In this document: positions 1 through 6,142 of the stretch, in pieces
Numbering within the stretch: position 1 is the first letter of the stretch
Layout: each line of letters opens with the position of its first letter
Source of the DNA: an uncultured Thiodictyon sp.
GTDB taxonomy: Bacteria; Pseudomonadota; Gammaproteobacteria; Chromatiales; Chromatiaceae
Assembly: GCA_903837595.1 (NCBI GenBank)
Contig: CAILVI010000006.1
Span: forward strand, 1 to 43,740
Length of the DNA stretch: 43,740 nucleotides
Direction: 5' to 3'
Position numbers and translations under genes: made by a program
Notes under the pieces: generated by a model
What the model was told of the DNA's origin: nothing
Seen by the model: only the letters and a program-made list of their open reading frames with translations
Databases searched by the model: none

Positions 1-243
1 GCCGGTGCCGGCTCGCGTGCCTTGACGGCCGGTGCCGGCTCGCGTGCCCTGGCGGCCGGTGCCGGCTCGCGTGCCTTGGCGACCGGTGCCGGCTCGCGCA
101 CCCTGGCGACCGGTGCCGGCTCGCGCACCTTGGCGACCGGTGCCTGCTCGGATGCGTCGGCAGCCGGCGCCGGCTCGCTTGCCTCGGCGGCCGACGCCGG
201 TTCGCTTGCCTTCGCGACCGACGCCTGCTGGCGACGCTCCTGG
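1..243 (-). repeat. 27-bp in-frame tandem repeat (about 9 copies, runs off the edge)
   Basis: Nine contiguous 27-bp units start at 1, 28, 55, 82, 109, 136, 163, 190 and 217. The five nearest the edge are almost identical and the inner ones more diverged. Each encodes nine residues of the type V/A-A-K/R-V/A-R-E-P-A-P in the tail of the pseudokinase. Because 27 is a multiple of three, copy-number change would keep the frame. Confidence 0.9.
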
Positions 244-3301: not shown

Positions 3302-6142
3302 CTATGATTTCTCAAGATACTTGAAGGTCTCAATCTTCCAATCGGTGCCGTTCCATCGCAGTGGTATCAGACCGCGCCAGCGCTCCTGTTGACCGTCGCG
3401 CGTCACACGAGTCCAATCGACCCACACTCTCGCCGATGTTTTACTGATGTCTTTCAGATGCACGGCATGAATCTTAAGAGCACGGGTATGCTCGATGATG
3501 GCGCGCGCATGCCTGTCGGGAACATTGAAACAGGCCAGGGCCTCGGTTACCTGTTGGGCACGCACATAGTCGACATAGGCCCATACCTTAGCGACCGACG
3601 CCCGCCGGCGGCGCTCTGCGGCCGATAGGACCGGCGTGACTGGCCCGACCGGCGGATCCGGTGGGGCCTCCACGAGCTGCTTGGCCTCCGCCGCCGGTTG
3701 GGTGCCCGCTGGCGGTTGGGCTGCCGGATCTGCTCGCCGCTGGCTCCCTGACTCATGTAACGCAGCCAAACCGCGCTCGAATGCCCCTTGCGACTGGGCA
3801 TCCAGGCGTTGCTTGACCTCCTCCTCGTGCCGGCAGCCGTTAGCGGCACAGGCGTACAGATAGGCAAAATAGGCTTTGCTGGTGTCGGCGCGCTGGGCCT
3901 TTGCGTACTCCTCGTCGTCGCGCTGCGCATCCCGACGGGCGAGGACGTCAAGAGCCTCCTGGACCTGGGACCGGTGCCCGCAGCCGTCGGTCGCGCCGCA
4001 CGTCTCCAGATAGAGCCGGTAGGCGGGGGCGGCATCCTGACGCCGGGCCTCGGCATAGGCCGCCTCGTCGTGGTCAAGGCGCAACTGCTCTGGTCCCGGT
4101 GGTTGGCCGGCCACCGGCAGTGCTGGCAAACCGTGCCCAACGACGCCCCGGGCTGGCGCGGCGGCCGCGGCGGCCGTTTCACTCCTTTCGCGGCGCACCA
4201 GCTGCTCCTGCGAGGCCATTCCCGACCAGAGCAATCGACCGACACTCCCAAGCACAAGGACCCAGACCAGCAACTTAATCCATGAGGACGAACGCGGTGG
4301 CGGTGTCCACACGGGCATTGGTGGGCGCGGCATGGCCGGGCTGCTAGAGGTCAGGTCCAGGGAAGGCGCCAGAGTGGACTCCAGGGACGGCGCAAGGGTT
4401 GGGTCGGGAGTGGGCTCCCGGGTCGACCCCGGGGTCGACCCCGGGGTCGGGGTCGGGGTCGGGTTCGGGGTCGGGGTCGGGGTCGGGGTCGGGGTCGCGG
4501 TCCGCTCCAGCATCGGCTCCGAGCGATACAAGCACCGGATAGTGAGTTTCTTATTGGTCGGCCCCGGGGCAGACTCCGGGATCGACTCCGGGGGCGGCTC
4601 CAGGGTGGGCGCAGGGAGCAGCTTCAAGGTGGGCGCAGGGAGCAGCTTCAGGCTAGACGCCGGGGGCGACAACGGGGTGGACTCCGAGGGCGGCTCCGGG
4701 ATCAGCTCTGGGGCTAGCTCCAGAGTTGGCTCCCGGGTGAGATCCGGAATCGGCTCCGCGGGCGGCTCCGGAGTTGGCTCCGGAGTGCACTCCAGGGACG
4801 ACTCCGGGATCGCCGCCGGAGCGGGTTCCAAGGTCAGCTCCGGTGTGCGCCCCAAGGTCAACGCCGGAATGGGCGCCGGAGCGAGTTCCAAGATCGGCTC
4901 CCGGGCCGGCGCCAGGATAGGCTCCGGGGGCGACACCGGGGTGGACTCCGAGGGCGGTGCCGGGATCAGCGCTGGGGCTGGCTCCAGCGTCGGCTCCAGC
5001 GTCGGCTCCAGAGTTGGCTCCCGGGTGAGATCCGGAATCGGCTCCGCGGGCGGCTCCGGGGTCAACGCGGGGATCGGCGCCGGAGCGGGTTCCAAGGTCG
5101 ACTCCGGAGCTGACTCAGGAATCGACTCTCGGGGCGGCTTCAGGCCGGGTCCAGACGCCGCCGCACTCGCACCGGCCAAGAGTGACTGGAAGCACTGTAC
5201 GCTCTGGGGGCGCTGCTGCGGGCTCTGTGCCAGGGCCTCGTCAATGACCTGACTCAGACTCAGGGAAACCCCAAAATCCGCTGCGGCTTGGAGGGTATCG
5301 TGTTCGTTGCGATCGATCGCGGCCGGCGGGATGTTACCGGTGACCATCTGATAGAGGACGGCGGCGGCGGCATAGATGTCGGTCCACGGGCCCTGGGCTG
5401 CCGTGCCGTGAGATTGCTCGAAGGGTGCGAAGCCCGCACTGACGACGGCGGACATGGAGCGGCTGCGCGCCCCCACAGCCTGGCGGGCACTCCCGAAGTC
5501 GATCAGGATCGGGCGCACACCGCCAGAGTCCAGGCGCACCAGATAGATGTTCTGGGGCTTGACGTCACGGTGCAGTAAGCCCTTGGCATGAATCGCCCGC
5601 AAGCCATCAAGGATCGGCACCAGCAGTTGCTTGGCCTGATTCTCCGGCAGGCGCCCCCCCTGACTCTGAAGGTACTCGGCGAGCGAGAGTCCCTCGTAAT
5701 AGTCCATGATCAGATAGGCGGTACCATTGGCCTTGACGAGCTGGCGTACCCGCACCACATTGGGATGATTGATGTGGGCCAGGTTGCGCGCCTCACGCAG
5801 GAACCGCTCCAGGCCGAAACTGAAGGTCTCGCCGTCCTTCAGCGCATGGCACACGACGCTCGCTCGGTCGCCCGCCCGCCCGGCCAAGTCCAGGGGCAGG
5901 TACTCCTTGATCGCCACCCGCATCTCGAGGTTCAGATCCCAACCCAGATAGGTGATGCCGAACCCGCCTGGCTGGCCCAACCCCCGCCCGACGACGAACT
6001 GCCCGTTGAGCAGGATGCGCTGGGGCAGCAGCACGCTGCTGCGCTGCGCCGCTTCGTCATAGCCGCAGTGCGGGCAGGGATTGGTCCGTCCTTTCTCAGC
6101 GAAACAGCCGGGGCAGCAGGTCGCGTGGGCAGGTGAGGTCAT
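3302..6142 (-). CDS. Membrane-anchored Ser/Thr protein kinase with zinc ribbon and Pro-rich linker
   Basis: The start at 6142 is preferred over in-frame codons up to 6202 because GAGGA lies 10 nt upstream and the paralog starts at the same point. It gives 946 residues. Order: zinc ribbon (Cys10, 13, 23, 26); a complete Hanks-type kinase domain about 45-320 (Lys79, Glu117, HRD 191-193, Asn198, DFG 215-217, APE-like FAPFEQ); a very long Pro/Glu/Ser/Thr-rich linker (about 335-610); a membrane helix near 620-640; two TPR-like modules with Cys-x4/5-Cys-x-His; and a C-terminal 100-residue globular domain resembling an NTF2-like fold. The kinase should face the cytoplasm and the cysteine modules the periplasm. 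All catalytic residues are present, unlike the paralog at 1-2129. It probably phosphorylates proteins read by the adjacent FHA protein. Substrate unknown. Confidence 0.9.
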   Translation of the reverse strand: MTSPAHATCCPGCFAEKGRTNPCPHCGYDEAAQRSSVLLPQRILLNGQFVVGRGLGQPGGFGITYLGWDLNLEMRVAIKEYLPLDLAGRAGDRASVVCHALKDGETFSFGLERFLREARNLAHINHPNVVRVRQLVKANGTAYLIMDYYEGLSLAEYLQSQGGRLPENQAKQLLVPILDGLRAIHAKGLLHRDVKPQNIYLVRLDSGGVRPILIDFGSARQAVGARSRSMSAVVSAGFAPFEQSHGTAAQGPWTDIYAAAAVLYQMVTGNIPPAAIDRNEHDTLQAAADFGVSLSLSQVIDEALAQSPQQRPQSVQCFQSLLAGASAAASGPGLKPPRESIPESAPESTLEPAPAPIPALTPEPPAEPIPDLTREPTLEPTLEPTLEPAPALIPAPPSESTPVSPPEPILAPAREPILELAPAPIPALTLGRTPELTLEPAPAAIPESSLECTPEPTPEPPAEPIPDLTREPTLELAPELIPEPPSESTPLSPPASSLKLLPAPTLKLLPAPTLEPPPESIPESAPGPTNKKLTIRCLYRSEPMLERTATPTPTPTPTPNPTPTPTPGSTPGSTREPTPDPTLAPSLESTLAPSLDLTSSSPAMPRPPMPVWTPPPRSSSWIKLLVWVLVLGSVGRLLWSGMASQEQLVRRERSETAAAAAAPARGVVGHGLPALPVAGQPPGPEQLRLDHDEAAYAEARRQDAAPAYRLYLETCGATDGCGHRSQVQEALDVLARRDAQRDDEEYAKAQRADTSKAYFAYLYACAANGCRHEEEVKQRLDAQSQGAFERGLAALHESGSQRRADPAAQPPAGTQPAAEAKQLVEAPPDPPVGPVTPVLSAAERRRRASVAKVWAYVDYVRAQQVTEALACFNVPDRHARAIIEHTRALKIHAVHLKDISKTSARVWVDWTRVTRDGQQERWRGLIPLRWNGTDWKIETFKYLEKS
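4443..4497. repeat. GGGGTC hexanucleotide tract
   Basis: About nine copies of GGGGTC (one variant, GGGTTC) on the plus strand encode alternating Thr-Pro in the linker of the minus-strand kinase. Just left of it, 4421-4440 is a perfect 20-bp palindrome built from the same motif. The runs of four G separated by two bases are a strong G-quadruplex pattern on the template strand. Confidence 0.85.

Follow-up and report, generated by a model that had tools for sequence, protein, structure and literature searches.

A duplicated PpkA-like kinase flanking an FHA gene in an uncultured Thiodictyon, with catalytic residues lost in one copy

One end of a 43,740-nucleotide stretch of DNA from an uncultured Thiodictyon sp. 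(a purple sulfur bacterium of the Chromatiaceae; assembly GCA_903837595.1, contig CAILVI010000006.1), hereafter the window, carries three minus-strand genes in the order right kinase (6142-3302), FHA gene (2853-2263) and left kinase-like gene (from 2129 past the edge). The kinase is of PpkA type and has been duplicated, and the left copy may have become a constrained, non-catalytic partner around the FHA reader, an interpretation for which we judge the balance to be even. The new element is a young pseudokinase born by duplication, for which a sister species displays an intermediate stage. The origin of bacterial pseudokinases is hard to see because most described families are old. Here an active paralog, a dead paralog and a partly degraded ortholog occur side by side, with the FHA reader lying between the paralogs, and the order of the losses, as well as the presence of a non-catalytic function before or after the loss of catalysis, become testable with four proteins.

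The right and left genes are paralogs (E 2e-164), 71% identical over the first 324 residues, which span the zinc ribbon and the kinase domain. Both match Pfam Pkinase (E 1.4e-31 for the right, E 6.8e-22 for the left copy), and both carry a CxxC...CxxC zinc ribbon, one hydrophobic segment (by Kyte-Doolittle only) and Cys-pair repeats. The two colinear paralogs with shared modules, described in a first-pass annotation of this DNA as flanking the FHA gene, are therefore real. By sequence, the kinase domain of the right copy is PpkA-like, its best match among solved structures being PpkA (5hnv; 252 bits, E 5.4e-74, versus 137 bits for PknB). The annotation had also listed five substitutions in the left copy (K79R, E117Q, HRD to HGD, N198H, D215G) and an open frame of 709 codons. 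The frame is uninterrupted to the contig edge, and all five substitutions are present, each hitting a column invariant in 31 comparison kinases. The Gly-loop, absent from that list, is damaged as well, three glycines having been changed (G to V, G to A, G to S). The Asp of HRD, the Lys that follows, and the Phe and Gly of DFG are retained, and the activation loop aligns without a gap. Pseudokinases are defined, as quoted in PMC12599244, by the loss of the beta3 Lys, the HRD Asp and/or the DFG Asp. Judged on these three residues, the left copy classes as a pseudokinase, because the beta3 Lys (now Arg) and the DFG Asp (now Gly) are gone. Structure prediction gives the domain a kinase fold (pLDDT 87.4, pTM 0.85), with PpkA 5x1r as first and 5hnv as next best fold match. 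A sequencing or chance artefact is rejected by the paralogy, the ortholog described below, and codon statistics.

The left kinase domain was searched in 55 genomes, own and related, and matched at E 1e-80 or better in six of them, all of the same genus. One, G001, has the whole three-gene array on its contig C25, unchanged in order and orientation, with an FHA protein 85% identical to the one described here and the same DUF805 gene upstream; MoxR-type and DUF58 genes lie beyond its left gene. In the tree the left copies pair with each other (support 98/96), as do the right copies (98/96), and all four group together (100/100). Since the copies group by position rather than by species, the kinase duplication predates the split of the two related Chromatiaceae species. 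The order of genes, which the first-pass annotation proposed to look for in other genomes, is thus conserved in a sister species, while the five substitutions do not recur: the only ortholog found, the left copy of G001, shares HRD to HGD alone. It retains the VAIK Lys, the alpha-C Glu, the HRD Asp, the Asn and DFG, with the Lys after HRD replaced by Asn (DINPRN). All three defining residues being present, it falls outside the pseudokinase definition, and the fully dead state was observed in a single species. Orthologs with normal catalytic residues, leaving this copy a lone degenerate, had been named in advance as grounds for dismissing the pseudokinase; the ortholog is normal at K, E, N and DFG, yet has the HGD change. 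Besides this, the two left copies share GGFG to GAFG; among the changes common to both at otherwise invariant or nearly invariant columns are those of the Gly-loop Gly and the HRD Arg, of one Asp in the alpha-E region and of one activation-loop Arg. The joint loss of the HRD Arg and of activation-loop residues may mark a move away from control by the activation loop.

The left kinase domains are under purifying selection. Pairwise ratios of nonsynonymous to synonymous rates (dN/dS, or omega) are 0.31 by NG86 and 0.17 by YN00 for the left pair, 0.30 and 0.17 for the right pair. A branch model of our own was fitted to 324 codons of 7 sequences; its branch tests share data and are uncorrected for multiple testing. 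Omega is 0.214 in the left clade versus 0.145 in the background, and fixing it at 1 costs 45 log-likelihood (lnL) units. At the tip leading to the Thiodictyon left copy omega is 0.283 versus 0.149, and omega = 1 is rejected (2dlnL 13.3). Removal of 14 catalytic codons leaves the estimate nearly unchanged (0.285, 2dlnL 11.7). The other tips have 0.163 (G001 left), 0.196 (Thiodictyon right) and 0.229 (G001 right). The left stem, a short branch, sits at the upper bound (20); it is above background (2dlnL 6.3) but not above 1 (0.6). A neutral pseudogene along the whole branch is accordingly rejected, and a dN/dS near one, named in the first-pass annotation as grounds for refutation, is not observed. 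In the Cys-pair repeats the NG86 omega is 0.37 for the left pair and 0.32 for the right pair.

Less probable, though deserving serious weight, is that the left gene is an early pseudogene, made redundant by the duplication, in which the catalytic residues have been lost first and frame breaks are still to come. The raised omega at its tip fits this notion, and so does the branch itself, as a neutral last 15% is accommodated; a neutral last phase from 0.01-0.02 to about 0.41 of the branch lies within 2dlnL 3.84. Because a late neutral phase fits, dN/dS alone cannot exclude a recent loss of function. The family yields frank pseudogenes (G177, G006, G219), though assembly errors could mimic them, and the G001 ortholog is not fully degenerate. 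Against early decay, 709 codons are open, the Cys-pair omega of the left pair is near that of the right pair, and the gap next to the FHA gene is conserved.

A further argument comes from the placement of the changes, since uniform decay is not expected to favor catalytic positions. The comparison set of 31 kinases includes 29 full-length family kinases along with both right copies, and excludes copies that are broken, partial or of DLG type. The 14 catalytic positions were picked by us from kinase motifs, and the Fisher tests treat columns as independent. At 83 columns invariant in 23 kinases (21 with HRDxK and the two right copies) the Thiodictyon left copy is changed at 7 of 13 catalytic versus 6 of 70 other columns (p 0.0005). 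The excess persists at columns where the G001 left copy keeps the family residue (5/10 versus 4/64, p 0.0015), and at those invariant in all 31 kinases (7/12 versus 4/43, p 0.0009). The G001 left copy has no significant bias (3/13 versus 6/70, p 0.14). As controls, the right copies were compared with the family without them: that of Thiodictyon is changed at 0 of 14 catalytic and 9 of 83 columns, that of G001 at 1 of 14 and 10 of 83. The losses in the Thiodictyon left copy are targeted to catalytic positions, and a targeted loss of catalysis therefore fits better than general decay. Since catalytic residues have been lost while the rest of the protein is under selection, the left gene is probably not dead but encodes a functioning partner without catalysis.

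Whether the left protein retains some activity, as a non-RD kinase in G001 or an atypical nucleotide user in the species described here, must also be considered. The G001 copy has VAIK, Glu, the HRD Asp, Asn, DFG and DINPRN, and kinases with HRDxA or HRDxS instead of HRDxK are common in loci of the family (8 of the 29 comparison kinases). The Thiodictyon copy keeps the HRD Asp and the next Lys, and the Arg at beta3 would retain a positive charge. Yet it is devoid of the beta3 Lys, the alpha-C Glu, the Asn, the DFG Asp and three Gly-loop glycines, and would not be expected to bind metal in the usual way. We consider residual activity unlikely. The HRDxA/HRDxS kinases (found at L099, L101, L102, L104, L105 and L110) also share APEEQ in the activation segment.

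The preferred scenario, a duplication followed by conversion of one copy into a non-catalytic partner, can be depicted as follows. A PpkA-like membrane Ser/Thr kinase residing beside an FHA gene was duplicated in an ancestor of the two Chromatiaceae, giving the kinase-FHA-kinase array, and the right copy remained an ordinary kinase. In the left copy the HRD Arg, a Gly-loop Gly and activation-loop residues were probably the first to go, a state persisting in G001. The beta3 Lys, the alpha-C Glu, the catalytic Asn and the DFG Asp were then lost in the Thiodictyon species, making this copy a pseudokinase, while fold, zinc ribbon and Cys-pair repeats stayed constrained. The right kinase may autophosphorylate on Thr residues, its own long Thr-rich linker being a candidate site, and may phosphorylate the left protein or other targets. 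This linker, which contains repeats of 12 and 24 bp, measures 297 residues in Thiodictyon and 306 in G001, versus 39 and 66 in the respective left copies. The zinc-ribbon FHA protein would bind phosphothreonine and so link right and left proteins. The left protein would act as a membrane-bound scaffold or allosteric partner, and may dimerise with the right kinase via the shared N-lobe or the outer domains, tuning its activity. As to the reader, the FHA domain has diverged very little between the two species (omega 0.04-0.08). The phosphothreonine pocket of FHA domains is marked by GR, Ser, His and Asn, with a SxxH spacing; these residues are present in all six aligned sequences, but Ser and His are here one residue further apart (SxxxH).

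The FHA gene belongs to a larger setting. An FHA profile run over 210 genomes of the order (cut-off E 1e-20) identified 25 places, spread over 21 genomes; every one of these neighbourhoods was inspected, several being cut by contig ends. Usual neighbours are zinc-ribbon kinases, a trypsin-like protease-FHA fusion, a PP2C, a VWA-FHA protein and a second PP2C; in G006 the neighbourhood includes a membrane protein with VWA. A Chromatiaceae locus noted at L103, L108, L102, L105 and L045 combines trypsin-FHA and a PP2C with a membrane protein of coiled-coil or VWA type, the zinc-ribbon FHA protein, kinases of PpkA type, VWA-FHA and another PP2C. A kinase directly follows the FHA gene at nine other places (L041, L044, L045, L051, L099, L100, L101, L108, L113). 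Its domain is full-length in seven, and all seven keep Lys, Glu, HRD, Asn and DFG, two having Ala in place of Lys after HRD. A dead kinase is therefore no general part of the FHA unit, and the hypothesis of a dead kinase conserved across the family is rejected. The proposal that an intact kinase, a reader and a dead membrane partner make one signalling unit thus survives in part: a constrained pseudokinase is most likely, but full loss in one species does not make it a conserved dead partner. Same-strand kinase-FHA-kinase arrays occur also in G204, with wider gaps and both kinases intact, and in G219, where both kinases are broken into several frames. Two adjacent zinc-ribbon FHA genes were found at L111 (G055:C89), with no kinase detected nearby. 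Kinases of the same family spread over several frames, either pseudogenes or assembly errors, were observed at L100 14219-14897 (G177), L044 3486-4929 (G006) and L112 2303-6116 (G219); one of these broken copies carries HSD and DCG.

Of the 8 genomes in the genus, 4 have a match to the VWA-FHA protein and 4 (G000, G001, G003 and G004) have none at E 1e-15 or better, draft assemblies limiting the claim of absence. PP2C is matched in 6 of 8; the Thiodictyon homolog lies on contig C36 with neither kinase nor VWA beside, and PP2C is adjacent in relatives such as G007 and G005. Judging from gene content, this lineage carries a larger phosphothreonine locus in reduced and duplicated form, with only kinase, FHA gene and kinase kept. 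That the cassette is a mere remnant of the FHA/kinase/VWA-FHA/PP2C locus, no longer signalling as a unit, would agree with the missing VWA-FHA matches in G000 and G001 and with the solitary PP2C. The continuing constraint on FHA domain and right kinase, and the draft state of the assemblies, speak against it, and we regard this as the least probable of the alternatives. Tentatively, the pseudokinase may be caught while arising, a non-RD state, still present in the sister species, coming first and the erosion of the remaining active site later, with the scaffold constrained and perhaps replacing the lost VWA-FHA partner.

Several observations weigh against a duplicated kinase turned partner. 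In relatives the FHA protein adjoins active kinases, and a pseudokinase is not needed for the unit. The cassette, searched via the FHA gene, occurs in only two species among the 210 genomes. The G001 left copy, which keeps Lys, Glu, Asn, DFG and the HRD Asp, is possibly active. The rate of the Thiodictyon left copy exceeds background (2dlnL 4.9), and a model that makes the final 15% of its branch neutral does no worse than one with a single omega. Finally, the right kinase is separated by a 448-bp gap, and is possibly a transcription unit of its own.

The combination of kinase, FHA protein and pseudokinase is known already, and published precedent exists for the logic put forward in the first-pass annotation. 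In mycobacteria PknB phosphorylates the tail of the MviN pseudokinase, and FhaA then binds (PMC12599244). The PknB-FhaA-MviN (ActPs3) circuit likewise includes an active transmembrane kinase, an FHA reader and a pseudokinase. In that account, however, the pseudokinase forms a fusion with a transmembrane protein on which peptidoglycan synthesis depends and is not a tandem paralog of the kinase, has all canonical motifs degraded and carries an activation-loop deletion; the left copy keeps the HRD Asp and has no deletion. The membrane pseudokinase EssB/YukC of the type VIIb secretion system (T7SSb) serves as a scaffold, but is described in the same source as an old secretion-system family, not located beside an active paralog. 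PpkA-PppA-Fha of the type VI secretion system (T6SS) similarly joins a PpkA-like kinase to an FHA partner (PMC3224232, PMC3953482), and the relatives surveyed here have PP2C; PpkA phosphorylates TssL, and Fha binds the phosphothreonine (PMC3953482). In the Thiodictyon genome the PP2C is alone on C36 rather than adjacent, and the cassette lies outside any T6SS locus. Moreover PpkA has an outer VWA domain, the cassette kinases Cys-pair repeats and a possible NTF2-like domain. VipB matches were found on contigs C487, C29 and C58, none on that of the window. In complete relatives VipB is on another replicon (G007) or at least 268 kb away; in G204, which carries two FHA loci, VipB had no match. An accessory T6SS role is rejected on position, no T6SS gene adjoining the locus, and the wider Chromatiaceae locus appears to be a phosphothreonine signalling system distinct from T6SS. 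Zinc-ribbon kinases with PP2C and VWA neighbours are found also in GAP1-N2 systems, described in PMC7159879 for actinobacteria with a GAP1-N2 GTPase. A word search found no paper joining pseudokinases with Chromatiaceae or purple sulfur bacteria.

The assembly (7.79 Mb) comprises 576 contigs, and the window is the whole of one of them, C6; its left edge is consequently an assembly edge, and falls inside 27-bp tandem repeats. As the open frame runs into this edge, the C-terminus of the left gene is unseen. The missing part was not found elsewhere in the genome, and its location on another contig is rejected. The FHA gene is 133 bp from the left ATG, and with gaps of 448 and 133 bp a single operon for all three genes is not evident. 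Both the spacing between FHA and left genes and the 270 bp preceding the FHA gene are conserved in G001. FHA and left genes are probably co-transcribed, and the right gene, located upstream, is perhaps separate from this transcript. The conserved 270 bp may accordingly include a promoter for the FHA-left gene pair; a promoter and terminator scan of the locus was overall no better than chance. The genome has five close kinases of the cassette type, two in the cassette and three on contigs C430, C413 and C385, which retain catalytic residues; the zinc-ribbon FHA protein is matched once in this genome. The outer region of the right kinase is poorly modelled (pTM 0.30), and its best fold match has E 5.6e-3, none reaching 0.001 or lower. 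Coordinates are given in Table 1.

Table 1. Features of the cassette in window coordinates
Feature	Position	Strand	Basis
Left gene, pseudokinase; ATG at 2129, 709 codons seen, open to window base 3, cut by contig edge	1..2129	-	sequence, Pfam
27-bp tandem repeats encoding a 9-residue REPAPVAKV-like repeat; contig terminates within	2..271	.	sequence
Left, three Cys-pair repeats (Cys 479/484, 528/533, 593/598)	315..722	-	sequence
Left, hydrophobic segment, putative membrane helix	978..1034	-	Kyte-Doolittle 1.55, weak
Left, kinase-like domain; kinase fold predicted	1155..2009	-	alignment, predicted model
Left, D215G (DFG to GFG)	1485..1487	-	alignment
Left, N198H (catalytic-loop Asn)	1536..1538	-	alignment
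Left, R192G (HRD to HGD), common to G001 ortholog	1554..1556	-	alignment
Left, E117Q (alpha-C Glu)	1779..1781	-	alignment
Left, K79R (beta3 Lys)	1893..1895	-	alignment
Left, zinc ribbon, intact	2049..2102	-	sequence
FHA gene, 196 aa, N-terminal zinc ribbon and FHA domain	2263..2853	-	Pfam FHA E 1.8e-5, Yop-YscD_cpl E 9.7e-10
FHA domain; G110 R111, S126, H130, N156 invariant in 6/6 aligned homologs (two partial)	2305..2583	-	alignment
Gap between right and FHA genes; 270 bp before FHA gene conserved in G001	2854..3301	-	sequence comparison
Right gene, zinc-ribbon PpkA-like Ser/Thr kinase, catalytic residues intact, 946 aa (ATG 6142, stop at 3302)	3302..6142	-	sequence, Pfam
Right, C-terminal alpha-beta domain, NTF2-like by weak fold matches only	3305..3622	-	predicted model, fold search
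Right, Cys-pair repeats, presumed periplasmic	3803..4045	-	sequence
Right, hydrophobic segment, putative membrane helix	4217..4273	-	Kyte-Doolittle only
Right, Pro/Thr/Ser-rich linker, 297 residues (35 Thr, 84 Pro), kinase to membrane segment	4274..5164	-	sequence
Right, kinase domain; VAIK, Glu, HRDxKxxN, DFG all present	5171..6022	-	alignment
Right, zinc ribbon	6062..6118	-	sequence; coordinates computed from residue numbers

Other kinase-like genes reside in the window. A fusion of kinase-like and FGE-sulfatase domains (16411-18447, minus strand) matches Pkinase in the C-lobe part only (profile 89-256, E 1.9e-6), and adjoins a PP2C_2 protein (18466-19233, minus strand; E 1.2e-43). The N-lobe after the Gly-rich loop is seemingly missing, and the window could thus hold another degenerate kinase besides the left copy. 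A small soluble kinase (10446-11453, minus strand) has HLD for HRD and DLG for DFG, and a similar one is found near the FHA locus of G060 (L101 2003-2989).

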